Assembly (NCBI GenBank): GCA_037447655.1
Contig: JBBHKE010001722.1
Span: forward strand, 1-64,000
DNA: 64,000 bases
Source of the DNA: Zygnema cylindricum
Taxonomy: Eukaryota > Streptophyta > Zygnematophyceae > Zygnematales > Zygnemataceae
Direction of reading: 5' to 3'
Part shown: in pieces, positions 3,779 to 53,549 of the stretch
Layout: each line of letters begins with the position of its first letter
Position numbering within the stretch: position 1 is the stretch's first letter
Program-made: the position numbers and the translations under genes
Notes under the pieces: generated by a model
Told to the model about the DNA's origin: nothing
The model's database searches: none
What the model saw: the letters and a program-made list of their open reading frames with translations, nothing else

Positions 3779-3884
3779 GATATTCCATTATACTTAGCTG
3801 AGAAGGAAGCCCAAGAGGTGGGAAACGGAAAGGACTAGCTGAAATTCCTCAGTAAAGTGGATCAGATCCAAAGGTTAAAGAGTT

Positions 3885-22431: not shown

Positions 22432-22489
22432 CTCCTTTTATTTTCTAGTCTATCTTTAATTTCAGACCACACTTTTCCCTGCAAAAAAT

Positions 22490-25789: not shown

Positions 25790-25829
25790 AAGGGCCTTTT
25801 TCTTTCATCTCGGGGTACCACTAGTCTGC

Positions 25830-26775: not shown

Positions 26776-26779
26776 AACC

Positions 26780-27835: not shown

Positions 27836-28599
27836 GAGAGGTACGTCCAATATAAACCCACCTATTGAGATCTACATGTTCATAATATTGCCAACCAAAA
27901 CTATCATCGTATAGTCAACATTACTCAAATTCTATATTAAGTGATCTACAAATACTTGTCAGCTAAGTAACTTGTGATACTCTTATGAATCTCGACCATT
28001 GACTTAATTCATATCAATCGCAGTTGGGTTGTCGCGTACCAAATCACATTCATATCACTCACGGCTGTGGTGTCCTGTACCGAATCATATCCAAGATAAC
28101 AACAGCCGCGTTGTCTGTACGGATCATATCCAAAGGAATCGCAGCTGTGTTGTCTTGTCTGCGTTGTCTTGTTTGTGTCGGAGCTTTGCTACCCCGCTTC
28201 TGTTTGTGCATAGCACCTGCGTTGTTGCGCTGCTCTGTCTGCATAACAATTGCGTTATTCTATCTGCGTCGCAGTTGCGTTGTCCAATACTACAGTCAAG
28301 TGATGACGCATGTCCTTGTGAAACTTACGCTACAAATTACTACTTTTTTGTCATCATACTAATTTACTAAGACTTAAAGTTTTCCAAAATCAACACTCCC
28401 GTAAAGCTTTAGACTCAGTGTATCAGCGCAGTTGCGATGTCAAAGCCGCGCAGCTGCGATCTCACACTTAGCCCAGCAAGGCAGCATAGCAGTGCGGCAT
28501 GGCATTATAGCAACACCAAAAATAAACTAGTCACCTTGTCCCACAACACCTTGTTTGTGGACTAGTGCCGCATGGCATTATCGTAGTGCACCAACTCAA

Positions 28600-30110: not shown

Positions 30111-31505
30111 GTTTGCTGCCTTGATCTAGTGGTTCCGCTCTGTTGATGAGAAGGCCTTGAATGGTTAGAGGCTCCCTTGAGGCTGCCGAGTAGGCGACGT
30201 GAGGCTACCGAGTAGGCAAAGTGAGAGCTTGCTTGCAGGCGGCTACTGGATCTTCTTCCCACCAAAAAATTTGAGGCTGAAATTGTCTGATCCCTTGCAT
30301 TGTGCTTGTTGCGCTAATTGCGATCACCTAAGATTGACCGCAGTAGGTCTGGTTGGAACTAAACTTGTGAAATAACATGGATAATTTTTGACTCCTGTGT
30401 TCCCACCGGTGAAGTTCGTATCTGTGGGACAATTTCATGAATGCAATCTAGAATAACATATTCTTGTACTTTTTGCTGCTTTTCCAGCTGTGTCATTTCA
30501 AATAAATCTATCGAGTCTAGCTCATCCTTAACAATGATGTTTCTCGCTATAACTATTTTTCTGCCTTTCAAACACAAAAACTCTATAACCCTTTGAGTGA
30601 TCAACATATCCTAACAGAATACCTGGTAATCCTTTCGTTTCCATCTTTCATCTATCATTAGATGTATCCAAGATAAAGCATGTACTACCAAATACTTTGA
30701 AATGACTAACATCTGGTTTTCTACCTGTCTAGATCTTGTTAGGAGTAGTCTCTACCGATCTTGATCCTATCTTATTCTTAATATAAACCGCACAATTTAG
30801 AGCCTCAGCCCAAAATTTCGGATCCACATTTTTATATGCAAGCATCGACCTACAGCTCTATGTGAGGGTTCTATTTAATCTCTCGAAAACCCCATTTTGT
30901 TCCGGTGAATATTGAACAGTCAAAAGATGACTTATAACTTCATCAAGTAAAAAGGTTTCAAATTCCTTCGAAGTATATTCCACACCATTGTCCGATCTGA
31001 ACTCCAAAATTGGTAAGTTATTGAGTTTTTCAACCCATGCTTTATAGTGTTTGAAGTGACGAAACACTTCGCTCTTTTCTTTCATGAAGTAAACTTTTGT
31101 AAACCTGGAAAAATCATCTGTGAAGGTGACCATATATTTCATCCCTCCGGCAGATGGTACCCTTGCAGGACTAAAAACATCCAAATGAATTTGTTGTAAA
31201 AGTTTTGTTGACCAAAATGGCAATCTGTAGATTTTGCCTAAAGCGCAGCCATCACATGTTGTGACCGGCTGATCCGTGATGGATACAACCTCTATTTTTC
31301 CAGCAAGTACCATTTTTCTCAAACTATCATAGTTTACATGGCCTAATCTTTTATAACACAACTCATCTGAGTGCAAAGCACTAGAGTACAAAACATCATT
31401 ATCCTTGGTATTAGCCATATCCATGTGGTACATCTTGCTATTATCTCTAATACCTGTAAACGCAACTTTTCTATTTTTGCTAACATCTTGCCGACCATTT
31501 TTCAA
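30111..31505 (-). pseudogene. pol: Integrase of element B and linker to RT
   Basis: Frame 31505-30858 carries the pre-integrase block with RLGHVNYDSLRKM (the preceding WH is replaced by CY), the CDGCALGKIYRLPF zinc half, LDVFSPARVPS (first Asp), FRSDNGVEYTS (second Asp) and SPEQNGVFERLNRTL (Glu). All three catalytic acids are present. From 30850 to 30111 the C-terminal domain and the linker are broken into short frames; 30607-30359 is a Glu/Ile-rich remnant. Confidence 0.87.
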
Positions 31506-32600
31506 TTAACCTCAAAGCCTTTTCTCTCTACCAAAGATGTAGAAACATATTTTTCTTTTAGTCAGGCACAAATAAGACATTTTGAAAAGTCCTTTCAATT
31601 GCTTTTCCGTCTATATCAACTAGCAAGGACACATCGCCCAGAGCACAAATTTGAACACTCATTCCACAAACATAATAAATATTTTTCTCCAGCGTAGTTT
31701 TCAGATTTTTGAAAATGGCCTTATTGGAACACATGTGAGCTGACGCTCTCGTATCCATTATTCATCCAGGGTCGTTCGCGCCTTCCATTGCTGCCGCCAT
31801 AGCGAATAGATCCGTTACGTCCTCCTCAAAAAATGTTAGAGTCTTGTCTTGGAGTGATGAAGAAGCTGAAAACAATGCATTTCAACGAGGTGTAGGTATT
31901 ATGAAGCCTTTGCAAAACTGACTTTGTTGCCATCCCGGCCTGTATAAACCTTTTTCGTTAGCCTTTTTTAGCTTAGGATAGAACTTATATCCATGACCTC
32001 TCTCAATAGAATAGAAACATGCATTGTTGGATTGTCTATTTCCACCTTGATTAAACTGTCTGAACTGATTAAATTGATTTTGTTGCAGATTAAACTGTCA
32101 TTTCCACTCAAAGTCTGAATTAAAAGCCTCTACTTGCTTAACATTGAGAATATTAGATTTGGCTTCCACCTCTAGTAAAATATTGATAACTAATATCGAT
32201 AACCATCTAGCTTTATCTTTATGTTTCAGCATATCAGATGCTTCTTTCATACTACGAGGGAGACCCCTCATGAGCAATGTTGCCTGTTGAAATTGAGGAA
32301 ACACCCCACTTCCATAATTACGTGCATCTACAAGGATGCCAAATTTGTTAGAATATTCAGCCATTGTACCCCCTGTAAACTTATAGTCCCAAATATATCT
32401 AGCCTATAGAAGCTCTTCTTGGACATTAGCCATTTCATAATCATTTTTAAGAGACTTCGAGATATCAATTGTTTTTTTCATATATATCCTATACATAGCT
32501 AAGTCCTCAAATATACATAATTTTTGAATAGAACGAGCCTGCATATTTTCTTGGACCATAACGGATCAGATTCATCGAGCGAACCATCTTATATATCCAA
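31506..32600 (-). pseudogene. gag: gag and protease of element B
   Basis: Frame 32364-32098 is the copia gag core (MAEYSNKFGILVDARNYG, LLMRGLPRSMKEASDM). Upstream to about 32600 an N-terminal part reads in the same frame with a stop. An Asn/Gln-rich stretch and a damaged zinc knuckle (CFYSIERGH, with Ser and Tyr in place of Cys) follow near 32010. The protease motif at 31758 reads MDTRASAHMC, where functional copies have D-S/T-G-A-S; Arg replaces Gly. Confidence 0.82.
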
Positions 32601-32916
32601 AAGATAGATATTCTCAAAATGTGTCTCCACCATATTCGCCCAGTAAACATACTTTTCTTTGGAAAAGATTGGAATTTTTGATAACATGCCCATAACCTAT
32701 TAATCTATAACCACCGGTGCACGTATGGGAGCAACAGTAGTAGAAGTAAACATGATACACTCTAAAATATTATCAATAATCCTACCAAACAGCTATTTTC
32801 AAGTGCTCACCAAATCTTATACAAGCAACTAAACCTCATAGAACTCTATCAAAATATAGAGTAGCATTAACACTGAAAACTCCCAAAGTTTCAACACAAT
32901 TGACTTGACAACACTT

Positions 32917-33959
32917 TGTAGAAATTAATGCTCTGTTTTAAGTATTTTCTAGGTCTAAATAGAAGTACAGAAAGAAGCCGAGGCAGTCTACCTCTAACTT
33001 CTCTCCAACTCTCAAACTTGTCGCAGTCACTGAGAAATTGGAGAGGGAGCTAAAGCCATGGCTACCAAGGCTATCCAGAGGTTTACGGGAAATATATATT
33101 AGTTAGGGGTTTTATTTACTTAAAGGTATTTGCCAGCCATAGGATTTGATCCTAGTACCTACCGGCCGGCAAACAGCCGATAGCCGGTAGCCTTAGCCGT
33201 TAAGCCTAGACCTAGTGTTACGTTCTATATGGTTAGATATTTATTTAAACATTTCCATGTAGGATAATTCATTTAACTGTAATTGTTTATGGGATACATA
33301 GATTTGGTAATGTAAAAGTACGGATAAGAAATCAATAGCGCGAATTTATTTCGTTAGAGAAACGAATACCGCGCATGTATTTATTACGGCTGCGATTAAA
33401 TGTGAATTTAATCGGACGGCCAGAATTAGCGCCGAGATCGCAGAAGAAGATTTTGGCGGTTTGTGGTCATTGCCACGTCGGATGACACGTGGCGAAATTA
33501 CATTAGATCGTGGTATCTCCAGAGATTACGGCACCGGATCCGGATATGACATGTGTCGACATTTAGGCCATGTCGTACAATGTCCGTACATAAAGTACAC
33601 CGACAGTTGTACTTTTGTGTACGGAACTGTGATCTAATTGGCTCCGTACATCATTAAATAGACTTTGTGAGAGAGATAGGACTTAGAAAAATTAGAAGAT
33701 AGGACCCTCTCTCCCAAAGAGCTTCTGTACAAAAGGTCAACTTTGACCCTCCATAACTTACTGCTCAGGGGAGCAAATTCAGAGATTCTTTTTGCTATCG
33801 ACTCACATGAGTCTTCCCTTCACAGGGAAAGATGTTGGTTAGAGTTTTTGTCTGCCAAGGTGACAATTATTTTTGTTGAAACACAAAGGGGTCAGGGTTA
33901 TCCTAGAGGCTTCTAGAAAGCTGTCTATTCTAAAGACTTATAGAGGTCTCAGAGTCTTA
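32917..33959 (+). repeat. 5' LTR of element A
   Basis: It begins tgtagaaattaatgctctg. It ends agagtctta where the 3' LTR ends agagtttca; the 5' LTR of A' shows the same tctta ending. The following ggttatgggcccaccctc does not match the usual Met tRNA site, so the primer is unknown. Confidence 0.94.
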
Positions 33960-33963
33960 GGTT

Positions 33964-34899
33964 ATGGGCCCACCCTCTAGGGTACCAATCTTTAATGGAA
34001 CAGGCTTCATATACTGGGAAAGTATGATGATAGGAGCTCTATGCGAAAAAAGGTTTTGGGGGACAGTGAGTGGACTGTTGGTGCGTCCACCAAGTCTTGG
34101 CATTCCTCCAAGGTTTGGAGGAAGCACATTCACTACGAAAGAGGATCCACCTTCAGCGGAGGAAACAAAAGAAGGAGAGGTGGTGGACAAAGGAAAGGAG
34201 AAAGAGGCGACCACACGAATAGCAACTGGTTCGCCATTCATGTCACCTATTCCGAGAAACGAGGAGAATGATACTAAAATGTGGGACTTCAACAATATGG
34301 CGGCAAAGCACTTCATCCTACGCCATCTCACTCAAGGACTTGCATGCCCTCATTTGCAGGTATAAAGGGCATTTGATCTTTGGATGGCTCTCATAGAGAT
34401 GTACCGAAGTGGTACGATTTAGCAACAACAGTTGGCTGAACAGAAAGTTAAGGAGTATGTATACAAAGGGGGGAAGATGTTGGATTTTTGCAATGAGCTT
34501 GCTACACTCTTCATGGAGCTAGAGAGTGCGGGAAAAGTTTTTAGTGAAAAAGAAAAGGTAAACTGTTTACTGATGAAGTTACCTGATGAGTTCGAAAACA
34601 TAGTCAACCGTGTGTAGGACTTGCCGGACTCAAGGTGGATATGGAACTCAGTGGTAGGGATGATTTCCGTTCGGGAGAATACGATTGAGATCCAAAAGGG
34701 AGGAAAGAGTGGCCAAGCCTTGGCAACTGCAACCGATTGGATGAAGAAGGATTCCTGGAAATCGGTCAGAAACTATGGGGGTAGGGAGCAGAAAAATCAG
34801 ACCGACGAGTTCGGACCAAGAGCTCCCAAAGGTTTATGTTATTTTTGTAAGAAACCTAGGCACTATATGGCAGAGTGCACTAAGCTAACCGAGCTTTGA
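33964..34899 (+). pseudogene. gag: gag of element A, interrupted by four stops
   Basis: A single frame starting at the ATG at 33964 reads through N-terminal VPIFNGTGFIYWESMMIGAL (the start typical of copia gag), the helical core KVKEYVYKGGKMLDFCNELA and the zinc knuckle CYFCKKPRHYMAEC. It is cut by TAA at 34363, TAG at 34420, TAG at 34615 and TGA at 34897 without any loss of frame. All four stops are shared with A'. Gag would form the particle; a translation product would need readthrough or help in trans. Confidence 0.88.
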
Positions 34900-34950
34900 T
34901 TAAAGGAGGGGCAGACTAGTGGTACCCTGAGAGGAAAGAAAAAGGCCCTT

Positions 34951-36482
34951 GTGACACATGTACATGAGGCGGAATCCGAGGACGAGGACGATGAGCTCCT
35001 TTTAGATAATGAGTTGGAGGCGAAAAACGAGGTGGAAATTCCACGAAGGCAGAAATGTGATTACGGTGGATTGAAAGTTGAAGCAGGCTGGATTGTAGAT
35101 TCAGGTGCCTCCATGCACATGTGTAAGGATAGGCACCTGTTCCCTAAGATAAGAAATAATCCCACCGTAGAGATAGAGTACGGGGATAGGAGGATAGTCA
35201 CCACTACTCTTGTAGGATCGGTAGATTTGAAAGTGTTAGTAGAAAGAAAGACATCCATAGTAACATTCTCCGATGTATTGTTTATTCCGGAGCTGAACAA
35301 AAACCTCATCTTTACATCTGTATTAGATGATAAGGGTTTTTTTATTAGCACTAGGGAAGGAGTCTTTACTGCTAGTTTTGAGGAGGATGTCTATTTCATT
35401 GCTGAGAAAGGTAGCCATGGGATGTTTAGGCTGGTTTTAAGTAATGAAAAGAAGAAACTTTATTATGCTGGTGTTCATGATATTATGATGTGGCATAAGA
35501 GGCTTGGGCATGTGAATCTAGACAAGTTAAGAGAGATGAAAAAGATGGGAGTGGTGGAAGGGATTAAGTTCAGTGAGAATGATAATATAAGTGATTGTAG
35601 TGGATGTGCTCAAGGTAAAACAAAAAGATTACCCTTTCCTAAAACAGCCACCTATAAGGGAGAAAAAATTATAGATCTAGTACACACAGATATTTGGGGA
35701 CCAGCTAAAGTGCCCTCACCGGGGGGGAAGAGATTTATGATGACCATCACTAATGATTGGTCTAAGTATTCGCGAGTGTATTTTTTGAAAAACAAGTCCG
35801 AAGCTCAGGATTGTTTTAGACAATATAGAGCATGGAGCGAAAAACTCCATGAAACTCCAATGAAGAGAATAAGAAGTGACAATGGTGGAGAGTATACTTC
35901 TAACCAGTTTGAGAATTTTCTGAAGGAAGATGGGGTCCAACACCAAAAGACAGTTCCAAAAACCCGGAACAGAATGGGGTAGCTGAAAGGTTAAATAGAA
36001 CACTAAGTGATAGTGCTAGAAGTATGTTGTCAGATAAGAAGATAGGAAAAAGATTTTGGGCAGAAGCAATGAATTGTGATAATTACCTCAAAAATAGAGT
36101 TCTTACTTCAGCTTTAAAAGATGAAACACCTTATGAGAGATGGAAAGGCCGGAAACCAGACATATCTCACTTAAAGGTTTTCGGCAGTCAAGTATTCAGT
36201 CTAGATACAGATCGGTCTTATTGGAAGCTAGATCCTAAAGGAAAACCGGGATACTTATTAGGATATGATGAGGATGTTAAAGGATATACAATTTATGATC
36301 TAAAAAGGGAAGATATAATCTTAGTAAAACATCTACTAGTTATGGATGAACGAAAGTCTGTGGATCCCTTAAAATATACAAAGTTTGTAAAAATCAGATT
36401 TGAGTCAGAAAATTCCGATGACTTTGAGCTTCCTAACTATCCAAGTTTAGGAGAAGATGACATTCTTGCAGATACAAATTAG
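34951..36482 (+). pseudogene. pol: Protease and integrase of element A, one frameshift
   Basis: The 343-codon frame 34951-35982 starts with acidic sequence. It has the protease site WIVDSGASMHMC, pre-integrase MWHKRLGHVN, the zinc half CSGCAQGKTKRLPFP, HTDIWGPAKVPS and RSDNGGEYTS. It then loses frame just before the Glu motif and stops at 35982. The other frame continues with PEQNGVAERLNRTLS, FWAEAMNCDNYLKNR and the C-terminal FGSQVF and GKPGYLLGYDED (36024-36482). The three catalytic acids are all present; only the frame is broken. Confidence 0.9.
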
Positions 36483-36500
36483 ACCAAAAAGGACTCGGCT

Positions 36501-38298
36501 GTGGAAACTCCATTGACAACTCTACCTCAAGCGGAAGACGTGGTGGAAATTGATTTGGAATCAAGGGATAGGGAAGAAGCCGAGTTTGTTCGAAAGAATC
36601 CACGAGAACCATCTATTCCGGCCTCAGATTTTGAGGGGGGAAGGAGAAGTAGCAAAAGACTACAAGAAAAACAAGTTAATAACAAGGTAACTAAACTATC
36701 TCATCAGGATGAACCACAAAGTTATGGAGAGGCGATGACTTGTCCAGAAAAGAAATCGGTGGAAGACAGCCATCAATGAGGAGATGGCTTCAATTATGGC
36801 AGCCGATACTTGGGAGCTGGTGGATTGTCCACCTAACCGAAAACCAATCGGTTGTTAGTGGGTTTTCAAATTAGAACTGAACCTAGATAACACAATCGAG
36901 CGCTACAAGGCCCGACTAGTGGCAAAGGGATTTTCACAAAAGGAGGGAATTGACTACGAGGAAACCTTTGCCCCAGTTGTCAGATTTCCCTCCGTCCACA
37001 TACTTCTTACCCTGGCAGCAGCGGAAGACATGGAAGTGCACCTGATGGACATCAAGACAGCCTTGTTGCATGGGGAGTTGGAAGAGGAGATCTTAATGCG
37101 ACAACCCAAAGGGTTTGTGGAGGAAGGAGAGGAGAGTAAGGTATGTCGGCTGATTAAATCTCTTTATGGTTTGAAACAGGCGCCTCGACAATGGAATAAG
37201 AAGCTTGATGAGTTTCTTACCGGTCTGGGATATATCCGGATCAGCTCAGATAACTCAATCTATGTTTTCGAAGATGAGGAAGGTTTTTTATTTATTGCAA
37301 TTTATGTTGATGATTTGCTTGTTTTAAGTAAATCAATGGAAAAAATTAATAAACTGAAACCGATCTTAAGGGGAGATTTGAAATGAAGGATATGGGGGAA
37401 GCAAAATATATTTTGGGAATTCAAGGAGAGAGAGACCGAAAAAAGGAAAATTATAAGATTGAATCAAAATGAAGCAATAGGGAACATGCTTGAAAAATTT
37501 CAAATGGATAAAGCTAATAGTTCTATAACTCCAATAGAGTTGAAAAAGGGAAGTGAGGGGAGTGAGGAAGAAGGAGCCATAGTCTTAAACGAGGAATTAT
37601 CTCCTGAAGAACAGAAGTTCATGCAGACTATTCCTTACAGGCAAGTAGTGGGAAGTCTAATCTATTTTATGAATTGTACCTGACCGGATTTGGCTGCAGC
37701 TATAGGAGTGTTGAGTAGAAGTCTAAATGCTCCCACTAAGAGGGATTGGGAGGCAGCTAAGAGAGTCCTTAGATATTTGATAGGAACTAAGGATCTATGG
37801 TTGCATTTGGGTGGGGAGAATACTGACATCACTACTTGGAGTGATGCCAGTTATGGTGATGCTCCGATGAGGAGATGTACTTCTGGATATGTATTATATG
37901 TGGGTGATGGGGCTTGCTGTTGGAGTAGCAAACAGCAAAAAGTTATTGCTCAGTCCACCATGGAGGCTAAGTATATGGCCTCTTGCTCTGTTGTAAAAGA
38001 ATTGATGTGGGTCAAGTCTTTGCTTGGTGAGCTTGGTCACCTTAAGAGTGGTGTGCAGAAATTTTTTTGTGATAATCAGGGAGCAATCGCTATTTCTGCA
38101 AATCCTAAACAGCATTTTAAAGCCAAATACATGGACATTAGACTCAGCTTTGTTAGAGAGAAAGTAGAAAACAAAATAATCAGTTTAGAGTACCGACGAG
38201 ATAGTGAGATGGTAGTAGATATGATGACCAAACTTGTGCCTTCCCCTAAGCTAATTTTCTGCAGGGAGAAGTGTGGTCTTAAATTAAAGATTGACTAG
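36501..38298 (+). pseudogene. pol: RT and RNase H of element A
   Basis: Acidic linker 36501-36779, then a frameshift and a stop within the RT start. RT frame 36919-37386 has GIDYEETFAPVVRFPS, MDIKTALLHGEL, LIKSLYGLKQAPRQWNKKL and the catalytic IAIYVDDLLVL. A break near 37386 precedes MGEAKYILGI-type sequence. Frame 37459-37683 and, after a TGA at 37681, frame 37690-38298 give RNase H with WSDASYGDAP, TSGYVLYVGDGACCW and STMEAKYMA. The tail KYMDIRLSFVREKV is intact to the stop before the polypurine tract. Confidence 0.9.
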
Positions 38299-38300
38299 AA

Positions 38301-38311
38301 AATAAGGGGAG
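38301..38311 (+). other. Polypurine tract of element A
   Basis: aataaggggag abuts the 3' LTR start at 38312. Confidence 0.85.
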
Positions 38312-39353
38312 TGTAGAAATTAATGCTCTATTTTAAGTATTTTCTAGGTCTAAATAGAAGTACAGAAAGAAGTCGAGGCACTCTACCTCTAACTTCTCTC
38401 CAACTCTCAAACATGTCGCAGTCACTGAGAAATTGGAGAGGGAGCTAGAGCCATGGCTACCAAGGCTATCCAGAGGTTTACGGGAAATATATAGTAGTTA
38501 GGGGTTTTATTTACTAAAAGGTATTTGCCGACCATAGGATTTGATCCTGGTACCTGCCGGCCGGCAAATAGCTGATAGCCGGTAGCCTTAGCCGTTAAGC
38601 CTAGACCTAGTGTTACGTACTATATGTTTTGATATTTATTTAAACATTTCCACGTAGGATAATTCATTTAACTTTAATTGTTAAGGAGATAGATTGATCC
38701 GGTAATGTAAAAGTACGAATTAGAAATCAATACCGCAAATTTATTTCATTAGCGAAACGAATACCGCACATGTATTTATTACGGCTGCGATTAAATGTGA
38801 ATTTAATCGGATGGCTGGAATTAGCGCCGAGATTGCGAAAGAAGATTTCGGCGGTTTGTGGTCATCGCCACGTCGGATGACACGTGGCGAAATTACATTG
38901 GATCGTGGTATCTCCAGAGATTACAACACCGAATCCGGATATGACATGTGTCGACATTTAGGCCATGTCGTACAATGTCAGAGATAAACTACACCGGCAG
39001 TTGTAGTTTTGTGTACGGAACTCTAATTTGATTGGCTTCGTACATCAATAGATAGAGTCTGTGAGAGAGACAGGACTTAGAAAAAATTAGAAGATAGGAC
39101 CCTCTCTCCCAGAGAGCTTCTATACAAAAGGTCAATTTTGACCCTCCATAACTTACTGCTCAAGAGAGCAAATTCAGAGATTATTTTTGCTATTGGCTCA
39201 GAGAAGTCTTGCCTTTACAGGGGTGAAGTTGGTGAGAGTTTTTGTTTGCCAGGGTGGCAGTTATTTTTGCTGAAACACAAAGGGGTCAGGGTTATCCTAG
39301 ACGCTTGTTGGAAGTTGTCCACTTTGAGGACCTATGGAGGTCTCAGAGTTTCA
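38312..39353 (+). repeat. 3' LTR of element A
   Basis: It begins tgtagaaattaatgctct and ends gtctcagagtttca, directly before the cactt duplication. A hairpin-forming block around ggatttgatcctggtacc at about 38539 recurs in every A-family LTR here. Confidence 0.94.
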
Positions 39354-40081
39354 CACTTAAGATATAATACTCAGAAGTTTCCTAAAAACTATTTGCAGAT
39401 TTACTACTTAAAAGTCAGGATACATAAAATGCTCTAAGTCTTAAGCCTTATAATCTTGGTGTTCTACCGCCAATAAAAGTGTACTTGAGATGAGCGTCCA
39501 AAATCAACCCACCTACTGAGATCTACGTGTTCATAATCTTGCCAACCCAAACTATCATCGTACAGTCAACATTACTCAGAATTTATATTAAGTGATAGTA
39601 CAAATACTTGTCGGCTAAGTCACTTGTGATACTTTTATGAATCTTGTCCGTTGACTTGATTCATATCAACCGCAGTTGCGTTGTCCCGTACCGAATCACA
39701 TTTATGTTACCTGCGGTTATGGTGTCCTGTACCAAATCATATCCAAGATAACAGCAACAGCGTTGTTTGTACGGATCATATCAAAAGTAATAGCAACTGC
39801 GTTTTCCTGTCTATTGGCTGTACGGATCATATCCAAAATAACCGCAACTGCGTTGTCTTGTATGTGTCGCTGCTTCGCAGCTACAATGCTCTGTTTGCAT
39901 AGCAACTGCGCTGCTTTGTTTGCATAGCAACTGCGCTATTGCGTTTACGTCGTAGTTGCGTTGTCCTGTATTACACTGAAGTGATGACGCATGTCTTTGT
40001 GAAACTTACGCTACAAATTACTACCTTTCTGCCGTCATACTAGTTTAGTAAGACTTAAAGTTTTCCAAAATCAACAACAAG

Positions 40082-41190
40082 CATGGCTCGCACCGTTGTA
40101 CACATTCCCAAGTTGGTTGGTCGAATCTTACGAGATTCCACCGTCAAACAACGGGAGGATACTTTCAATAAAGGTTCGACTGATCACAGGCGTGACGGTA
40201 AATTTCGTAACACCAGTATTCCGTTGTCATTTACTAAAGAATCTTCTCCTCCGATGCTCGAAACCGTTTCAGCCATTGCCGCTGAAGCTCTCAAGATAGT
40301 GGATCAAACCATACATGAAGCACATCGCATGAAAGAACGCTTGTGCATTCTATCTACTATGATTTTTAACACTTTAAAACTCTCTTCAACCTCTGATACC
40401 TCTGCTGCAACTATCTCTTTATAAGCACTACAGCTGCACAAAAATTTTGCTGCTATTAAACCTACATTTGTAGAGGAGCGAAATTCCCTCGATCTTCCTA
40501 TAAGTTTTTTGGATTACGGGAAGGGTTCATTGTTGATGAATGGTATAGCCCTTTCCCTACACCTCATGGTTACGGGTGCAAAGCCGGTGATATTAGGCTC
40601 TAGCTTTGCACTCAAGCTTCGTCTAACTCTGGACAAGCTTCAGCCCACTGCAACTCGCTTGTAAACATTAGCGAGTACAACCAGGCAAGTCTGAGGAATC
40701 ACTAAGGAACCGCTCGTCTTCCGGTTCCAAAATGGAATAGTCACAGACTTCGCAGAGATCTACGTTCACGCTCTGGTCACTAAATGTAGTGACTATGAAT
40801 GCCTATTGGGATAGGTTATTATATTTCGTGTAGGGGTGGAGTTTACATACTTGATCAGACATTTTCTTATAGGCCCACTAACTTTCCAGAACGCAAAATC
40901 TGCATTTCGCTAATTTCCGCTAGGAAACCCATGCTTATTATGGCGCATTCGGCCACCTTCATACCTGCATTTTCAAGGATTTTTGTGTTGGCCGAAATAC
41001 TTCATTCATTGTCAACAAAATATTTTTTTCTTGACTGTTCTTACTTGCTCGAAATTTTCAGTGACCCTATATTTCTTATAGATACGAGGGAATTTGATCG
41101 CATCTATAACCTCACCTTGTCAATTCCACTTTCGACATTCTCTCTTCGAATCCTAATTCCTATAGACTTGTCTGGGTTTTTACCCATTAA
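40082..41190 (+). pseudogene. End of gag and protease region of element C
   Basis: The sequence resumes element C on the right of B. Frame 40083-40424 is a Lys/Arg/Thr-rich linker, followed by aspartic-protease-like blocks in broken frames: VILGSSFALKLRLTLDKLQP (about 40590-40650; the catalytic Asp-Ser/Thr-Gly itself is eroded to LGSS), then ITKEPLVFRFQNG and YECLLG (about 40699-40808). The frame 40799-41194 ends with DQTFSYRPTNFPERK. Block order and spacing, not an intact active site, support the call. Confidence 0.55.
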
Positions 41191-41198
41191 TTGAAATA

Positions 41199-43091
41199 TG
41201 GTCCAATTAAGACCCTATCCGAATGAATTGGTGATTTTGGACCTCTTCGCTTGAATTGGAACTTCCCTCCTTTCTTGTTTGCGAAATTGATTATTAATTC
41301 GATTTTATTATTTTGTCAAAATTGATCCTTTACCACAAAAAGCAAAAGTACATCATTGTAACTTGTTATATTCTTAATACCCAGATTTGTTACCAAAATT
41401 TGCATATAAGCATATGTATACTGCCCTCCCACAAGACATCTGGATTGTGGGCAACCATTGTTGTTTTGAGACAACTGCTGGCACTGAAGATGAAGAAGAT
41501 GCAGCAGTAGTCATCGTAGAACAAAACAAAAAAGGAAGCTTCTACAAATACCGATGGCTGAACAACAACTTTGACAGACTATAACTTTCAAAACCAATGG
41601 TCGTGAAAATTTACTACAGTGTAGATAACATACAAAAGAACACACACACAAAATTTCAATGAATTCCGCTCACAAATCTGTGAGATATGCAGAAATGAAA
41701 TTACATTAAACTGAGTGTACAGTTTTCATATCATTTGTTCCTAATGAATCAAATTCACTAAGTCCTACTTCTATACACCGAAATTACACTAGGCTGTACG
41801 GAGGCATTCCAGCCATACATATAACATTATAACACAACAAATAGTATGAGTATACCTGTGTACTAAAGGTATGTCATAAACCACATTCTTAACACTAAAC
41901 AACTAATTCACTACAAACAAAATTATATTCTACCAAATATTTACACCGGAGTTCAGACAACGTAAAGTTATACTGATCTAGTCATGCCTTGTCAGCATTT
42001 GTTGGCGGCGGCTGTTAGCCGTCCGACTAGAGGATTTCTCACCGTAGAATTGACTTCACGAAGTCCTGTGGTCCTGCCGAATTTCCGTACGTCCACGGAA
42101 GACATACTCACGCATTTCTCTCAAGTGACGACGCGTGTCCCAAGTGTGAATGAACCGTGAACTCCCAAATTCACTGACACACTAATTTTGGTAACCACTG
42201 AACCGAACTCAACCAAAAATAGCTTAAGTCCTGAATAGCTCACTCTCCCTCACAACTTAGGCATAGAGAGGACTAAAGCTTTCTAAAAACAACAACCATC
42301 ACTTACTGGATATTAGTTGAATCGATCTAGTTATTACCGGATGGGAGTGCTAAGGAATGTCACGGGGCGGGAAAGGTCTCGGTTTAGCCGATCGCCGCAC
42401 CAAATTATTTTTTTGAATTGGTTCGCATCGTGCATTTCTTACAAACTTTAGAACATCGTATGGGATATATATTGGAAAATGTCGTGGCCTATAACGATGC
42501 AAGACCCAAGGTCTTCGTTGATTATCAACGGATCAAACAATTTAATGGTCTACCCCTTATTATTGACGCCGCTCGCCATGGTTCACTAGCACAACGTGTT
42601 TGCTCTAAATGGACAAACCTAATCCATATTGGTCGACTCTGCGAGGCTAACCTGTCAATCCTGTCAATTTATCCTCCTCCTACAGATGTTAGTTCGTCCG
42701 CTTCCTACAAATATTCAAGCTGCCATTCTTCCTTTCCATAAGGTGCAGCCTTGCAGGCAAAAGGATTGTCTCCCTAATTTCAATATCAATGTCTTGGGTC
42801 AACCTCTCAAGGTTCTTTCTACCTTAGTTTTTACCCACATTGGCATGCATTCTCTAATGACGGTCCGGCATGCTCCGAAACATTTATACTGTCGAGCTTG
42901 AAGAGCCTAACTCAGCAAGAACACCTCTTGCATTTCATCACTAGCACTACATCCGCCCCTAGTCTTTAAGCCGCCCATGGCCTTGTAGAACGTCAAAGAT
43001 ACACTTTATTAGGTCGTGTCATGGACTTGCAGTCTTTTTCCTTTGTTTTAGGTTTTGGAATTGCAACTGGTCGCCTCTCTCAGGCACATGC
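41199..43091 (+). pseudogene. Cytosine-5 DNA methyltransferase encoded by element C, broken
   Basis: The enzyme would transfer a methyl group from S-adenosylmethionine to cytosine C5 in DNA. Family motifs appear in order: motif I VILDLFA-stop-IGTSL (about 41230-41268), a LPQDIWIVG block (near 41430), the catalytic motif IV as DLVITGWEC with a stop after the Cys (42324-42350), motif VI GYILENV (42463-42483), motif VIII-like AQRVCSKWTNL (about 42590), and motifs IX-X as FITSTTSAPSL, VERQRYTLLGRVMDLQSF (about 42935-43045). The 836-bp solo LTR (41459-42294) splits it; the frame is the same on both sides when the LTR and one accat copy are discounted. Other lesions are CAA/CAG-to-stop type changes and small frameshifts. 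It lies between protease and RT, so it belonged to the polyprotein or an adjacent ORF. Glu-Cys instead of Pro-Cys in motif IV is unusual for the superfamily. Confidence 0.85.
41459..42294. repeat. Solo LTR (other family) inserted in the methyltransferase
   Basis: 836 bp beginning tgttgttttgag and ending aaaaacaaca, flanked by the perfect 5-bp duplication accat (41454-41458 and 42295-42299). There is no coding capacity; the open frame 41387-41584 runs from element C into the LTR. It is not related to the other LTRs here. Orientation is undetermined. Confidence 0.86.
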
Positions 43092-43100
43092 GTCTTAACC

Positions 43101-43116
43101 AGCTGGGGGGGGGAAT
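43101..43116 (+). other. Internal polypurine-like tract of element C
   Basis: agctgggggggggaat nearly repeats the tract at 45820-45833 (agctggggggggaat). It lies between the methyltransferase and the RT frames. Some retroelements carry a central polypurine tract; alternatively it is where an ORF ends and a translational slip could occur. Function is inferred. Confidence 0.5.
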
Positions 43117-43377
43117 GCATCACTAAATATATCGTTTCGTCCCACTCTTAAAGGGACCACATTTCAAATTTTCCTCTTTCCTTCTTTTATTCCACTTGTT
43201 CCAAAAATCTCTATCTACGATTTCCTCAATCCTATTTATATATCCTGGTCTATCCTTGCATACACGGTTGTCTTGTCTGCAAGTTCTTTGTATAATCCAC
43301 CCACTCCTCAAGGACTGCTGCTTTTCAAACACGCAGCTATAATCATTCAGTTAATTGCCATAAACAAACACCTGTGG

Positions 43378-44012
43378 CTTACGTGTTAGGACAAACAATT
43401 ATCGCAAAAGAGCAGTTGGCCTTTGCACAAGCCATGGAGGCCATGACAACTGAGAATCCCGATGCTACAAAATGGAAATTCGACACCAATTTAACAAAGG
43501 CTAAACAAGAATTGAACGACGTAGTTTTATAGAATGTCGATGCTTTGTTTTTCAATGAACCATCTAGGACATCACCAACTTAAAAGATGTCGATGGACCC
43601 GATATTTTAACCGAAGCATCGTTTGTCAGAAACCGAATGGGAAATGGTAGACAAGCGATGTGCTCATCTAGAGGAAGCTGGCCTAATCTATCAGTCAAAC
43701 TCCACATTTGCGGCTCCCACCGTCATGCCTTGGAAAAAAGATTCTGAGGGTAATTTTATTGAACGTCGAATGTGCGGTGATAATCGTGAACTGAATGCTA
43801 TAACTGTTAAAGATCATCATCTTATGCCTCTCGCCGAGAAAATATTTGATCACGTACGCGGGGCGAAGTATTTTAGTATCCTTAACCTCCGTCAAGGATT
43901 GAATCAAATTGAGATAGAGGAAAAAAACCGGCATAAAACTGCCTTTTGGGTTTGTGACGGTCGATGGGAATCGGGTGTAATGCTGTTTGGACAAAAAAAT
44001 GCTCCAACTCTA
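43378..44012 (+). pseudogene. pol: Reverse transcriptase of element C, truncated
   Basis: After an N-terminal linker with stops (43378-43620), frame 43623-44015 gives the RT fingers and start of the palm: EEAGLIYQSNSTFAAPTVMP, RMCGDNRELNAITVKDHHL, GAKYFSILNLRQGLNQIEIE and HKTAFWVCDGRWE. The first catalytic Asp of the palm is replaced by Asn (LNL). The frame stops at the equivalent of FGLKNAP, so the YxDD box, thumb and RNase H are absent. They are replaced by LTR-like sequence and the integrase. Confidence 0.85.
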
Positions 44013-44252: not shown

Positions 44253-44344
44253 AACTTACTGTCTAGCCTCTATTTCGGATCCTTATCCCGCCACAAATCC
44301 TTGGCATGGTGGGCCCCTCATTCTTTTTCTATCCTCACAAACCT

Positions 44345-45262
44345 TCTAGTGCGGCACTACCATTGACGAAAAAGACAGAGTGAAAAAGAGAGCCAAATAT
44401 TACCTCTTGCACGAAGGATCTTTAGTTTGTTTGTTAGCGGATGGAAGCCATAGGTACGTCCCACATCTTATCGAGCGGCTTTCTCTAATTGAGCAGATTC
44501 ACACCGAGCTTGGTCAATACGGTACCAAGCGGACGTTAAGCCTAGTTCAGGCATAGTATTGGCGGTCAAGAATGCAAGCCGATGTTGCTGCCATTCTACA
44601 CAAGTGTACCACCTGCGACCGTCTCCGAACTTCTTTCTCTAATCGACACACTATGCTCCAACCTCTACCTTTTAAGGGTTTATTTAATCGATGGTCGGTC
44701 GATCTGGCCGGATCTTTTCACATCACACGTAGAGGAAAACAATACATCATCATTATGATCAAAAAAATTCAGTATGTGGGTAAAAGTTGTAGCTCTACCT
44801 CACTGGACAGGAAAGTTAACCACCGTAGCCTTTAAGGAACATGTCTTTATGAGATACGGTGCCCCAGCCGAGGTCCTTACACATCAAGATACAGAATTTC
44901 GGGGAGAATTTTAAGAGATGCTTGAAGAGGCTCTCATCGATCATTGTCGTACTAGTCGCGATCACTCGCAGGCCGATGGCCTATCTGAACGAGCTGTCCA
45001 GACATTTAAGCGTGCCTTAGGTAAGCATTGCTTAGAGAAACACATTTCGGTTTGGGACGAGTCCCTCGGCTACATTACCATGGGATATCGCATGTGGGTT
45101 CAAGCTAGCCTTGTCAATTTCAACCGTTATTATGTTTTATTTGGCAGAAAACAGCTTCTCAGTCGCAATATTCAGAAAGCCGCAAGTTTTTCCACTTCCG
45201 CTAATATCAAACACTATCTTTTTAGAAGAACTCACTTGTCGTGCTTTGCTTTTTGCCTGTGA
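44345..45262 (+). pseudogene. pol: Integrase of element C, broken
   Basis: The zinc-binding domain reads YYLLHEGSLVCLLADGS, IHTELGQYGTKRT (second His replaced by Gln), then DVAAILHKCTTCDR. The core has WSVDLAGSF (first Asp, about 44695). After a one-base frame change near 44763 comes WVKVVALPHW, RYGAPAEVLTHQDTEFRGEF (about 44850; the usual second Asp, TDQG, reads THQD), a stop, and DHSQADGLSERAVQTFKRAL (Glu, about 44954). The tail has MGYRMWVQASL. With two catalytic or zinc positions changed the enzyme was dead even before the frameshifts. Confidence 0.86.
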
Positions 45263-45291
45263 AATGCCCATGGCTTTTGATAATCTGCATA

Positions 45292-45381
45292 TTGCCCAGC
45301 ATTGAGACACACTTCTGTTTGCCACCACTCGACGCGTTGCCCAACATTGAGACACACTTCAGTTTGCCACCACTTGAAGCC
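45292..45381 (+). repeat. 45-bp tandem duplication in the integrase tail
   Basis: Two copies of a unit starting ttgccca(g/a)cattgagac. Because 45 is a multiple of three, the duplication keeps the frame (IAQH-stop-DTL..FATT twice). Confidence 0.85.
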
Positions 45382-45410
45382 GCAGTTTAACGCCGCAATA
45401 GAAGCCCTAA

Positions 45411-45836
45411 TAGGTGGGAGACTATGTGTATCTTGGCAAGCAATCTTTTGACACTTTGGACACGGATGTTTCAGCACACATCTTACATATTATTGTGGTG
45501 GATCCGAACGGAATGTTGGGATTAAAAAGAGCGGACGCACGAAATTTTCTAGAACACTCCAAGAATTGTGCTCCATGATATTTACCAGATTTGTTGCAGG
45601 ATATGGATCCCATGCAGATGCTAATTACGGAGGCAACAGCATGTACCTTTTGCCATGGATCCGACTGGGAAACTACCATGTTACTTTGTGATCATTGCAA
45701 TCAGGGGTTTCACATGGAGTGTTTGGTGCCACTATTGTTGACGTTTCTGGATGGTCAATGGTTTTGGCAAGGATGTCGCGAGCTTGCGGTCATGTTGGCC
45801 AGTTCCCTGCCAGCTAATGAGCTGGGGGGGGAATAA
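45411..45836 (+). pseudogene. C-terminal domain and PHD finger of element C
   Basis: The frame starts VGDYVYLGKQ (integrase C-terminal SH3-like fold start), continues ILHIIVVDPNGMLGLKRADA and EHSKNCAP, has a TGA near 45576, then DPMQML and a PHD-type zinc finger: CTFCHGSDWETTMLLCDHC, then NQGFHMECLVP, then GQWFWQGC, to the stop at 45834. Spacing fits Cys4-His-Cys3 with the last Cys pair reduced to one recognisable Cys. PHD fingers commonly bind the histone H3 tail. Its place at the end of pol equals that of the chromodomain in chromoviruses such as element D. I recall similar integrase-PHD tails in green-lineage gypsy elements, but could not check. Confidence 0.77.
45821..45832 (+). other. 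Polypurine tract of element C
   Basis: gctggggggggaa ends the PHD frame and directly precedes the B1 segment. A run of eight G makes it the strongest candidate in C for plus-strand priming. Confidence 0.65.
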
Positions 45837-46024
45837 ACTGACCTAACGATAACCAACTAAGTCGTCAACCTTTCTTTTTCTTCCACCTTGTTTGTTGTTG
45901 TATTTATTCATTTACACTTTTTATGTCTTATTACAGTCACGATGTTTTGTTATTATTTGGGTTTAAGTGGTGCACAGCTGATGATATTGCATGCATCTTC
46001 ATGTTAGTTGACACATGCATGACA
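45833..46024 (+). repeat. B1 segment: extra copy of the LTR end before the 3' repeat of C
   Basis: It matches 48328-48506 and the B half of the solo LTR (15205-15397, minus), from ataaactgacctaac to acacatgcatgaca. It stands between the polypurine tract and the start of A at 46027, so B occurs on both sides of A at this end. Confidence 0.8.
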
Positions 46025-46257
46025 GTTGTCATCCTGTATCTTGTCGGACATTCTTATTGTAATATTTGGGTATTAGGATGGGGGGCCGCCACTCTAATTT
46101 GTGTTAGTGTCTTATTTTGGTTTTGCAAGACCGTACTTACTTACATTTCTCTTTCGCGTCGACCGTACATATTTACAGGGGCGTACGCCTCAACCGTACA
46201 TATTTATTTTTCGCCGTTATTTCCAAAGACGGCGTATTGTCGTGTTCGCGTCAACCG

Positions 46258-47258
46258 TGTTCAAATTAAAACACTTTCTTATGTATTTTCTAGGTTTTTT
46301 AAATAATCTAAGATGAGGAAGGAAAATGCAGAGGCAGCCTAGTTCTAACTTCTTTCTCTAGCCCCCATTCTTGTCGTAGTCATTAGAGGCTAAAAAAAGA
46401 AGCTAGAGCCATGGCTGCCTATGCTTCTCATAGAGTCAAAAGGCAGTCCTTTGTTAAACTTACCAAAAAGATTAACAGACCCATGATTTGATCCTGGTAC
46501 CTACCGTTTGTCCAAATAGCCCAGTATTATTACCACGTAGCCTAGCACTTGTATCGAAGTATATAGGGTACGATAGCTACTTAAAGATGTGCAAATAGGA
46601 AAATTCATTTAACTAACGAACGGACCACAGTCACATAGACACAGTTAGACACAATCACATCGAAAAGTAGTGCTTGTATTTTAACGGCTATAAATTAAGG
46701 CGGATATCAATTAGACGGCGGAGAAAGAAGCCAACATCGCGGAATGAACATTTTGGCGGTTTGCGATCATTGCCACACCGAGTGACACGTGGCAACCTGA
46801 CATTGGATGGCGACATCTCCGGGACATACCATGACGAACTTGGACATCGTAAGCGTCGTCCCCTTGGCCATGTTGTACAATGGCTGTACAGAAAGTACTC
46901 CGGGCTAAGTACCTTTCTGTACTGTACACTTAATTGATTGGCTTTGTACGTTAATAGTAGAGGGTTAAAGGAGGGGATCAAGACTTAGAAAATATAGGTA
47001 ATAGCCTCTCTCTTAGAGCGCTTCTGTATAAAAAGGTTATCTTTGACCATTGATAATTTACTGCTCAGGGGAGCAAATTCAAGGATTCTTTTTATGGCAG
47101 ACTCAAGGGAGTCAGCTCTACCAAAGGGTTTAGTTTGGTTAGTCTATATTCTGTTAAAGTGTCAGCAATACTCATACAAAGATGAAGGAATTGAGGTTAT
47201 CTTAGAGGCTTCTAATAAGCTCCCTACTCTGAGTACTAATGGAGGTCTCGGAGTTGCA
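46258..47258 (+). repeat. A-family solo LTR inside the 3' repeat of C
   Basis: It starts tgttcaaattaaaacac and ends ggaggtctcggagttgca, aligning with A-family LTRs over its length (agtattttctagg, gagccatggctgcc, gatttgatcctggtacctacc, gggagcaaattca). Flanks aaccg and aaaca agree at three of five positions, so the target duplication is eroded. More diverged than the LTRs of A and A', so older. Confidence 0.83.
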
Positions 47259-47313
47259 AAACATACATGTTTATTTTTCCTGTAATTTAAGCCGACGACA
47301 AAATTTACCGTTC

Positions 47314-47499
47314 GCGTCCGTACTTAAGATTTTACCGTAACTACAACTTTACCGTATCTGCATCTCCGAAATTTCTTGCGTCTACGAATTCGATTGTTTT
47401 GCATGAGTAAGGCGTCCGTACCTAAGATTTTACCGTAACTACAACTTTACCGTATCTGCATCTCCGGAATTTCTTGCGTCTACGAATTCGATTGTTTTG
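47314..47499 (+). repeat. 98-bp tandem duplication in A2
   Basis: Two copies starting gcgtccgtac(t/c)taag and ending at cgattgttttg, nearly identical. The 5' repeat of C has only one diverged equivalent. Confidence 0.85.
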
Positions 47500-48510
47500 T
47501 ACAGACGAGTCGACTGTCAGTTCAGACAATGCGACGCGATTAGACAAAGTTAAGTCGTGAACCATTTGGAGGTTCACGCATTCACATGTAGATAGGAAGG
47601 GTTTTTATTCGTAGGTTATAGATTCAGTAACGTAGGGCATGGGATTCTGCCCGCCTATTGGCTGAATCCGAACTAGACACAATATTTACATAGCACGTTG
47701 CAATCCTATTCGTTTGTTTTCGCTAGTCGTAGACGCTGGTACTTAGTAGATTTTAGATTATTTTCGCACACAATTTTCAAATTGCATGAATTTTCAGTAT
47801 TAAAGATTATATGTAGCCATTCTTTTGTTTGTAAAATTGTCCGGACAGCTTATAAGCGATTTTCTTCCTTAGCGTGAAGCGTCAGGATCTATTACAGTAT
47901 CAATCTTTTGTAAAGCCTTACTTATTAATCTATACGGCTTCGGCCAAGACCTGCATGGTTTCGCTTCAACTCTTTTCCTCCGTTTGAGTGGATTTCGATT
48001 GCGGCTTTATAACACGATTTTCTTTTCCCAACTATGGTTGAACTTTAATTGGTGTGGAAGTTGCATGTTGGTTGTATCATTTTGTTGTTTTTATTTCTTG
48101 TGATTGTGTATTTATTTCTATTTAGCGTATGCGCATCTTTTGAGTTTGGTTATCTCAAACCTCATAAGTGTTTTGCATATTATCATTTTCAGTTTTTGTT
48201 TTCCGTCTCGGTTGTTTCTATTTTGATTTATTCTCTTTAAGTCTAAATTCAGATTGTCTTCGATAGGATAACTCCTACAAGGAATAAAATAGACCGTGGG
48301 GCCTAGTGGCCATCCATTGGCTTTGTACCATAACCAGCTAAGTTGTCACCCTTTTTTTTTTCTTCCACCTTGTTTGTTGTTGTATTTATTCATTTACATT
48401 TTTGATGTTATATTTTAGTCACGATGTTTTGTTATTATTTAAGTTTAAGTGGTGCACAACTGATGATATTGTATGCATCTTCACGTTAGTTGACACATGA
48501 ACTACAAGTT

Positions 48511-50640: not shown

Positions 50641-50652
50641 TGAGGTGTTCTC

Positions 50653-50867
50653 CTATTGACCGCCGGAATGCTTTCCAACTCCTGGAGGATGTTTTCCGAC
50701 TCCAGGAGTATGTTTTCCAACTCCAGGAGGATGTTTTCCAACTCCAGGAGGATGTTTTCCAACTCCAGGAGGATGTTTTCCAACTCCAGGAGGATGTTTT
50801 CCAGCTCCGGGAGGATGTTTTCCGACACCCGGAGGGTGTTTCCCAACGCCTGGAGGATGTCGCCCTC
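50653..50867 (-). CDS. Terminal exon with seven-residue GVGKHPP repeats
   Basis: A splice acceptor (tttctacag before 50867) opens a frame of about nine repeats, HPPGVGK with variants (PPGAG, TPGVG), ending KHSGGQ and TAG at 50655-50653. The repeat is regular in period (21 nt) and keeps frame. Pro/Gly/His-rich repeats suggest a cell-wall or extracellular tail. It could instead be a non-coding minisatellite. Confidence 0.45.
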
Positions 50868-53549
50868 CTGTAGAAAATTGTGAATAATGTTGAATAAATG
50901 AGTCATTTAAGAAATACAAAGCGTTCAAAAGATGGCATTCAAAAAGATAAAAAATAAAATACTTGGAGAAATAATTACCGCCATCTTTCCAAGGTAAAAT
51001 GACCTGTAAAATGCCTTCTTCTTTACCAAAAAGAATGAATGTACTGAACAAGCTTGTGAATGAAATGCAGTTTCTCGAATGATGATTTGCACCAATTTAT
51101 TTAATCAAAATGCCCAACTAGAAAGGCAAATTGCACAAAGAGAATGTAACCATTTCAAAAAGAATTAATTCTGTAGGATCATACATAATAGACAGACCAA
51201 CGGTATCCCAATAATACACTTTTTGCAAAAAGGATCGTATGTCTTTATTTTAATGAAGAATTGGAACTTGGTCTAAGTGCCTATTAGACATGGCCGTATT
51301 CGTTTTATTGGCAAATACACATTGCGTATAATTGGCACCGTAAAATCGTATTCAGCTTAGATTTGAAACACAACCAAAAACAAACCCACACGATGTATGC
51401 CGAGAAACACGTGGGCCGGAGGAATTGTGTACACTCCCCTCCTGATTAGTATGGATCATCATAAGTATGGACCATGTCTAATTTTAGACATGGATTTTTG
51501 GCACCCAGCTAACAAATTTTACGGATTACCATAATTGTTAACCTAAGGTGGCCAAGAGCACCTAGATCGGCACATAATTTTTGTGCGCAATGTAGCATAG
51601 ACCATATATTGTCATTCACAATACAGGATCATCTAAAATTGTTTAATTACGGTGATAGAACAGTGAACCTAAAAGGGACGTCTTGACACTAGAGTTATAA
51701 GTAAATGATCCGAAAAATCTTTTTCAGTATGAAAATCTGTCCGTGGTGTGCCTTTGAATAGCTTCCTCAAGATTGACAAGAAAAGTCTGAAATCTTGTGG
51801 CATGGTAGAAGACACACAAAAGTATCGATTGCAGACTTTCGAACTGCCTAAACTAATATGTGGACAAAGAATTTGATTGCGTAAAAAAATGATATTTTGG
51901 CAAGTTCAAAATATACGAAATTGTGATCCGACGCAAAATAAAAACAACTGATAATTATTGAGAAATTCAATGGAGCTTCAAAGTCTAAACTAAAAAAACA
52001 AGAACAATTTTGGCATATTTGTAATACTGGATTTGTTTTAGTGTGTGATGAGGTGGAAATCAAGCCCGATTTTTTTTTTCCTCACTTGCAGAAGTGAAAC
52101 GTCATTTTGCGTGAAACATTTAACCTTTTTTTAGTACCGCTTGGGGAACTCATGATAACACTTGAATTTGCAACCGTCAAAGTATATAATTTCGCATGTA
52201 ACGACAAAGATTGTGGCTGTCCTAGACAAAAAGTTGGACAGCTACGAGTTCTTGAGTCAACGTTACGCCACAAATTCTAACTACCAAACCGTAAACGACA
52301 AGTTCTGTATTTTAGAGTGCTGAGTACTGGATTGACGTACGAGAAGTATCATTTTTTGGACTTTAGTGGTACAGAACTTAGAAGTTATTTGAAATGGCGC
52401 GTCGAATATTTTGGCCTTTTCAGTCGGATGGGTCAGTTTCCAACCCTAGGGTTAATAGTGAGAATTCGTTGGCCTACGAACTAGTTTGACATGTAAAATA
52501 TACTTGTTGATTCATCTCCAAACATATTTCTCACCAATGGATGTGGTGGTATTTTTTCTTTTAACATACTGACAAAAACGTCCACAAAAAAATACAAAAA
52601 TAAGACAAAATTATCATTCTTTAAATATTGTACAGAGACGACCTATAATATTTCCAAACCAATTTCCTGAGTAGCTAAAAACTTAGTATATACATATAAA
52701 AATTACATATAAAATATATTCATTATATATGTCGGATATATAAATATACATCTATACACATACGTATATTAAAACATGTACTCAACAATCTGCTAGTCTT
52801 AGAAGATCATGACCTCCAAGGGAGCTTTAAACAAGAAAAAGTAAACACACAACTTATCGTCAAGTTCAACAGAAATCCTGATTTTGGCTGATGATTTTTT
52901 CTTAATCATCAACTGTGCATCTTTAGGGGTTCATCTGAGTGAAAAATTAACATTAACATTTATTTTTCTCTTTACCACTATTTTTGTGTATCATTAAGGT
53001 TTTGTTTTTGAAAGCACTCACTCAATTTCCTGGGCGGTGGGGCTGATACTGAAACCCAAAAACCAAACACATCAAATAATCGATACATAAAGTGAGTTAA
53101 AATGGAAACATCGGAAAGCATCTTGATTCAAATCGAGAGACGTCAAATACAAAATCAAATTTTAAAATAAATTTCATCTCTACCACAACTTATTCTTTAC
53201 TATGGTTTTGAACTAGCAACAAACGATCTTGGAAAAAAAACTGATACTTAGGCGTTCTAACTCTCACATGGGAAACGATAGAAACGAGCAGAAAACAAGT
53301 CAAAATCAAAAGACCAACACGGCTCATTCTGATGACGTTTATTACTAGCTTAGCTACAAAATAAAAAGCCACTCTGTTCCCAACAAAAAACATCTATGAT
53401 TTTACATTAATTAACATAACTCACCTATTTTGTTACTGTTTTTGAATGCTTATCACAAATAACAATAGCAGAGCCCGGAGTTATTCATCAAAATGGGTTT
53501 TCTAACACATACATTTTGTGTCTAAAAACTGTTTCATTGTAGAAAAAAG

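Follow-up and report, generated by a model that had tools for sequence, protein, structure and literature searches.

The window, i.e. the whole stretch of 64,000 nucleotides of Zygnema cylindricum DNA analysed here, carries a decayed Ty3/gypsy-type retroelement with a DNMT3-type C5 DNA methyltransferase (MTase) in Pol, and the family to which this element belongs is abundant in the genome, with its MTase under constraint. As the best explanation of the whole, to which we assign a probability of about 55%, we regard it as a dead copy of a family whose working copies would methylate their own newly made DNA. The identity of the enzyme alone, a DNMT3-type C5-MTase encoded between the protease and RT regions of a Ty3/gypsy-type element, is practically beyond doubt.

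The original prediction had placed C5-MTase motifs in correct order between the protease and RT of a retroelement. A profile of the MTase domains of ten relatives, constructed with exclusion of the window, gave four collinear matches in the window (best i-E 6.8e-25); 11 controls, one reversed sequence and ten shuffled ones, scored 0.7 bits at most. The following MTase parts were assigned:

41201-41458, + strand: profile match, model positions 2-87, i-E 1.4e-14; first part of the MTase with motif I (LDLFA-stop-IGTSL)
42300-43083, + strand: second part of the MTase (GWEC, ENV, WTNL, LLGRVMD) in at least two frames, with profile match
42300-42425, + strand: profile match, model positions 88-131, i-E 2.6e-9
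42403-43083, + strand: profile match, model positions 124-339, i-E 6.8e-25
42680-42829, + strand: profile match in a different frame, model positions 209-258, i-E 4.1e-6

As judged from profile and controls, the motifs occur in correct order far beyond chance. Using the relatives as tblastn queries, the MTase was located at 40937-43131 with the protease before and RT after it, which bears out the predicted arrangement. The segment 41199-43091, in which the original prediction had placed the MTase, is spread over several reading frames with stops; within it, 41459-42294 is a non-coding solo LTR with the TSD ACCAT, and the parts on both sides of it belong to the MTase. A Pfam DNA_methylase search, proposed as a check of the prediction, gave no match on the open pieces of the window MTase and, with stops written as X, a best E of 0.053 (42300-42410), below the curated cut-off. 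The same model scored over the cut-off in several relatives, so the check failed on the broken window pieces and succeeded on these relatives. A protein search with the window's own MTase returned nothing at E <= 1. When the open piece of the MTase was compared with PDB, chance matches to an unrelated mutase were all that appeared. Taken alone, the lack of a significant Pfam match on the window pieces would suit a host DNMT gene fragment or a chance similarity confined to a single copy. This explanation has next to no probability left, as relatives and many copies in the genome carry the MTase beside RT and as the profile matches point the same way.

The anatomy of the element in the window was reconstructed as follows:

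17092-48506, + strand: whole decayed element, beginning with TGTCAT, with the 4-bp TSD AGTT at 17088-17091 and 48507-48510
17092-18305, + strand: repeat A1, start TGTCAT
19961-20549, + strand: gag remains (P0005 residues 48-238, tblastn)
21037-40076, unstranded: later nested insertions of about 19 kb, mostly copia, between gag and protease
21388-27835, - strand: nested copia copy
32917-39349, + strand: nested copia copy
40119-40877, + strand: protease remains (P0005 residues 437-718, tblastn)
41459-42294, unstranded: solo LTR inside the MTase, 836 bp, TG...CA, TSD ACCAT at 41454-41458 and 42295-42299
43101-43113, + strand: purine tract AGCTG9 directly after the MTase, core the same as in the terminal tract
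43374-44012, + strand: N-terminal part of RT (tblastn)
44302-45181, + strand: integrase remains with H2C2 and rve, spread over more than one frame (Pfam, tblastn)
45192-45803, + strand: end of the integrase with the PHD finger (tblastn)
45642-45776, + strand: PHD finger PF00628 (Pfam E 4.1e-8), which ends the integrase
45820-45831, + strand: purine tract AGCTG8 directly before B1
about 45834-46024, + strand: repeat B1
46027-48326, + strand: repeat A2, with a copia-like LTR of about 1 kb inserted at about 46253-47264
48327-48506, + strand: repeat B2
15205-16374, - strand: solo A-B unit of the same kind as the element repeats, with TG...CA ends and TSD TTCT

The decay of this copy was traced by alignment with three copies of the same genome, C2577, C1915 and C829, at about 79-86%, which also assigned the gag remains to the element. 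In these copies, window position 18930-21036 adjoins 40077-41458, and 42293 follows 41458. Furthermore, 937 bp (about 940 bp) of these copies are missing in the window between 44005 and 44254, comprising the end of RT and RNase H. According to this alignment, the copia nest and the solo LTR were inserted later, and the RT end and RNase H were likewise lost later. The solo LTR cuts the MTase at profile position 87/88, and its flanks continue in one frame, with stops. The MTase of the window is a pseudogene with a stop in motif I, another right after the Cys of GWEC, and frame changes. With these stops and frame changes, the solo LTR in the MTase and the loss of RT end and RNase H, the window copy is dead. 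Scans for Rfam families and tRNAs found nothing in the window, whose GC content is 37%.

Some further observations concern the surroundings of the element. The two copia copies belong to one family (91.6% alike, opposite directions), and each has its own LTRs about 91% alike. They sit in the two long repeats which belong to a third copia-like element of greater age. Pieces of the third copia were also found within the nested stretch 21037-40076, and its flanks overlap by 4 bp on related element copies. A separate gypsy-type element without MTase match lies at 3856-6692 on the + strand (RT at 4883-5740, 41% identity to P0004). Long arrays of 6-bp units (ATTCAC/TTCACA, 71-73% matches) and one array of 21-bp units occupy 59818-60620, 62412-63998 and 50647-50877.

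The genome (352.8 Mb in 2689 contigs) was searched with the PF00145 profile, which yielded at least 123 scored matches out of 782 candidates, all over the cut-off. Nineteen of 20 fetched matches were MTases of the window element's family, the exception being L007, and RT was present within the 3.2-3.5 kb fetched in 15 of the 20. Ten copies were fetched as separate stretches and were picked for long open frames, i.e. they are not a fair sample. Seven of them (C1344, C829, C783, C2577, C1915, C1407 and C449) contain gag, protease, MTase, RT, RNase H, integrase and PHD in this order. C1112 covers gag through integrase, and a second lineage, C1374 and C544, MTase through integrase, with a weak PHD match in C1374. 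The A repeats are 100% alike in C1344 (931 bp), 99.6% in C829, 99.5% in C1915, 97.8% in C1374 and about 80% in C449; because of this range, some insertions must be recent and some old. Repeat A1 of the window had 53 genome matches including itself, from 40 scored candidates. The family of MTase elements is thus abundant in this genome and partly recent.

Protein relatives were retrieved with the RT piece of the window, which matched P0001-P0003 (63% identity, PHD listed) and, more weakly, P0004. The MTase part of P0002 led to 12 further proteins at E <= 0.01, among the family members being P0005, a gag-protease-MTase protein 75% identical to P0002 over the common MTase part. PF00145 scored over the curated cut-off in P0005, P0006, P0007, P0009, P0010 and P0012 and below it in P0008 and P0016; P0011, P0013, P0014 and P0015 gave no match, with P0014 and P0015 containing the end of the domain only. 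MTase and RT are parts of a single protein in P0002, P0009, P0010 and others, and there are relatives whose single protein also comprises RNase H, integrase and PHD. Together with the many genome copies with MTase beside RT, this supports the original interpretation that the MTase is the element's own; the enzyme of the window copy itself is dead. A PHD finger follows the integrase in the window, P0009-P0011 and P0013-P0016 (Pfam). The environmental relatives P0008-P0011 and P0013 show a second design, in which the MTase lies between RNase H and integrase; in P0008, a G-patch match was observed after the MTase. Among viral contigs and bacterial and archaeal genomes, a weak search with few patterns gave no confirmed relative.

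A profile of the MTase domains of six relatives was compared with solved structures of C5-MTases. DNMT3C ranked first of 59 (1.1e-25), followed by DNMT3A and 3B; further matches were 4onj (5.1e-13), labelled only DNA methyltransferase and presumably a DRM, DRM2 (5e-11), HaeIII (4.5e-10) and HhaI (9.3e-10), and DNMT2 reached only 6.6e-6. All six aligned relatives agree at the Cys, EN and RxR positions. Motif IV reads GW(E/P)CQ in most relatives and GWEC-stop in the window; the PCN of DNMT3 was not found.

A tree of the MTases, calculated by a quick method, placed the window together with the copies of the first lineage from the same genome (support 100) and united the five relatives of the second design (99). 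The RT tree separated 17 rows of MTase elements from the two rows lacking an MTase (100/99) and again united the second design, here with four members (96/98); this tree carried a long-branch warning from the program, and the MTase-free side was small with its two rows. Both trees are compatible with a single old capture followed by one later move within Pol, and two captures could be envisaged as well. The dN/dS values were calculated for pairs with 0.02 < dS < 1 from open copies, a choice which biases them downwards. For the MTase, 12 open copies gave a median of 0.229 (range 0.119-0.366; 16 of 66 pairs usable), compared to 0.105 for RT (27 of 105 pairs) and 0.60 for the integrase (1 of 10 pairs). 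The MTase is under constraint, although less so than RT.

The repeats of the window element follow the order A-coding-B-A-B, which is complete in 5 of 11 copies examined (window, C1344, C449, C829 and C1915) and found with an extra piece in C1374. It was not seen whole in C1407, C2577, C783, C1112 and C544, partly as the fetched stretches end. C2577 (26340-35900) shows A and B each once around the coding part, as recombination between B1 and B2 would leave them. Exact 4-bp TSDs were found in five of seven cases tested, namely AGTT for the window element, TTGG for C1344, AAGG for C829, CCCT for C1915 and TTCT for the solo A-B unit of the window; in C449 three of four bases match, and C1374 has no TSD (CCGT versus GAGG). 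Might the layout be an accident of nested insertions around an ordinary LTR element? The solo A-B unit, with its TG...CA ends and its TSD, does resemble an ordinary LTR, but the recurrence of the complete layout in five copies, four of which have exact TSDs around the whole, makes such an accident very improbable. In addition, the four bases before A2 in the window (CAGT) differ from those after B2 (AGTT).

All four B/A junctions read (window, C1344, C1407 and C1374) consist of GACA, two bases (GT or GC) and TGTC. Tracts of AGCT followed by 8-12 G occur at both sites, after the MTase and before B1, in the window and in 7 of 10 copies. C1112 has the tract after the MTase, and the scanned stretch stops before the second site; in C1374 and C544 the AGCT-G tract is absent and other G runs are present instead. 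From its sequence, the tract after the MTase may be a central PPT. Near the end of A1, a TATAAAT-like box (window 18260-18305; at the end of repeat A also 48280-48327) suggests a candidate transcription start near the A/B boundary. A possible, rather speculative account of these features would be a single old gypsy-type lineage with captured DNMT3, PHD reader and split repeats, which would replicate by a non-standard route. Here, the MTase would mark the DNA during synthesis, plus-strand synthesis would begin at the two like purine tracts after the MTase and before B1, and the DDE integrase would insert DNA with an internal B1/A2 junction. Like a circle junction, it would bring the two ends of the element together, separated by a spacer of 2 bp (GACA-GT/GC-TGTC).

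In working copies of the family, the MTase would act in or beside Pol and would add CG methylation to element DNA that has just been made, either before integration or in the course of it; the PHD finger would help to choose the chromatin. As a gain, new DNA might pass as host DNA, or new copies might be quietly silenced. Taken separately, the mechanism, i.e. methylation of the element's own new DNA by the MTase and guidance of insertion by the PHD finger, is a tentative proposal to which we would give somewhat less than even odds. It is favoured by the retroelement architecture in one protein, by DNMT3 as the nearest structures, by copy number and by the constraint on the MTase. Related DNMT3s of Symbiodinium retroelements, according to PMC5890265, performed de novo CG methylation in yeast. 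Less favourable are the lower constraint on the MTase compared to RT, the CQ of motif IV in place of the CN of DNMT3, and the enzyme of Klebsormidium nitens, which was inactive in yeast, a result called inconclusive by the authors of that paper.

A footprint of self-methylation was looked for by CpG o/e and by comparing repeats for changes of CpG to TpG or CpA, with GpC as control. The coding parts of the window and of first-lineage copies had a CpG o/e of 0.81-0.92, C1374 had 0.61 and A1 of the window 1.31; two non-element stretches gave 0.86 and 0.97, and three copia stretches 0.47-0.52. Changed CpG sites (GpC control in brackets) amounted to 24/64 (13/49) in the window element, 33/106 (21/93) in C449, 1/33 (2/39) in C1374 and 8/16 (7/18) between the solo A-B unit and A2-B2. 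The corresponding values were 13/47 (5/47), 14/47 (10/47) and 10/31 (13/37) for the first, second and third copia, and 18/96 (14/154) between the first and the second. MTase elements showed no sign of excess CpG decay over their copia neighbours; the CpG o/e of first-lineage copies resembles that of non-element DNA, and copia lies lower. This counts against lasting self-methylation, and not against a passing mark on cDNA. The roles envisaged in the original prediction, namely marking of the element's copies, competition with host methylation or protection of cDNA, are thus candidate roles, for which the CpG data give no indication of additional methylation.

The same absence of a CpG footprint, together with the inactivity of the K. 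nitens relative in yeast (PMC5890265), would agree with an MTase which does not methylate element DNA and is retained for a different purpose, e.g. methylation of RNA, binding of nucleic acids or the structure of Pol. We consider this unlikely, given the invariant Cys, EN and RxR positions in six relatives and the ranking of DNMT3 as best and DNMT2 far behind. Of similarly low probability is an MTase acting mainly on the host genome, where it would alter or dilute host silencing or slow transposition to the benefit of the host. Many copies exist, and such roles are discussed by the authors of PMC5890265; yet K. nitens carries such elements and has a plant-like methylome. Self-methylation by working copies remains our preferred reading, and a host with young copies would make it directly testable.

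The remark in the original prediction that retrotransposons had captured methyltransferases in a few algal and protist lineages was accurate as to an algal precedent: KnitGypsy-Dnmt3 of K. nitens, with a DNMT3 in a gypsy Pol and DIRS-like repeats, was described in 2018 (De Mendoza et al., PMC5890265). That paper described DNMT-carrying gypsy elements from one charophyte alga, to which another genome with many copies is now added. According to PMC6338049, elements of this sort are lacking in land plants such as tracheophytes. Because of this second genome with many copies, some with identical or near-identical repeats, and the second MTase position in environmental relatives, the capture was probably old and lasting. 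A paper of 2025 (PMC12344493) again cites DNMT3 in retroelements and names the streptophyte ones Copia. The word PHD is absent from the main text of PMC5890265, and none of the papers listed in the literature searches combined PHD, gypsy and DNMT.

The family of the window has those structural features of KnitGypsy-Dnmt3 that could be compared, by description rather than by sequence: a gypsy-type Pol containing a DNMT3-type MTase, absence of introns, A-coding-B-A-B repeats, and RT, RNase H and DDE integrase, RNase H being lost in the window copy. It differs in its host and in the PHD finger, the two like purine tracts and the 4-bp TSDs seen here. For the MTase of KnitGypsy-Dnmt3, a Ka/Ks under 0.2 was reported as purifying selection, compared to our median of 0.229, with most pairs not under 0.2. 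SymbioDIRS-Dnmt3 of Symbiodinium, described in PMC5890265, likewise has a retroelement DNMT3 in Pol and the same repeat order, but uses a tyrosine recombinase, whereas the elements described here have a DDE integrase (rve, H2C2) and 4-bp TSDs. This combination of split repeats, DDE integrase and 4-bp TSDs raises the question how such elements are reverse-transcribed and inserted. With chromoviruses, the family shares an integrase whose C-terminal end carries a chromatin-reader-like fold; here the PHD finger takes the place of the chromodomain, which is listed only for the MTase-free P0004. Eukaryotic DNMT3 and plant DRM enzymes are the best profile matches among solved structures, from which the MTase of this family differs by CQ instead of CN in motif IV, by the absence of a DRM-like rearrangement and by its location within a retroelement polyprotein.
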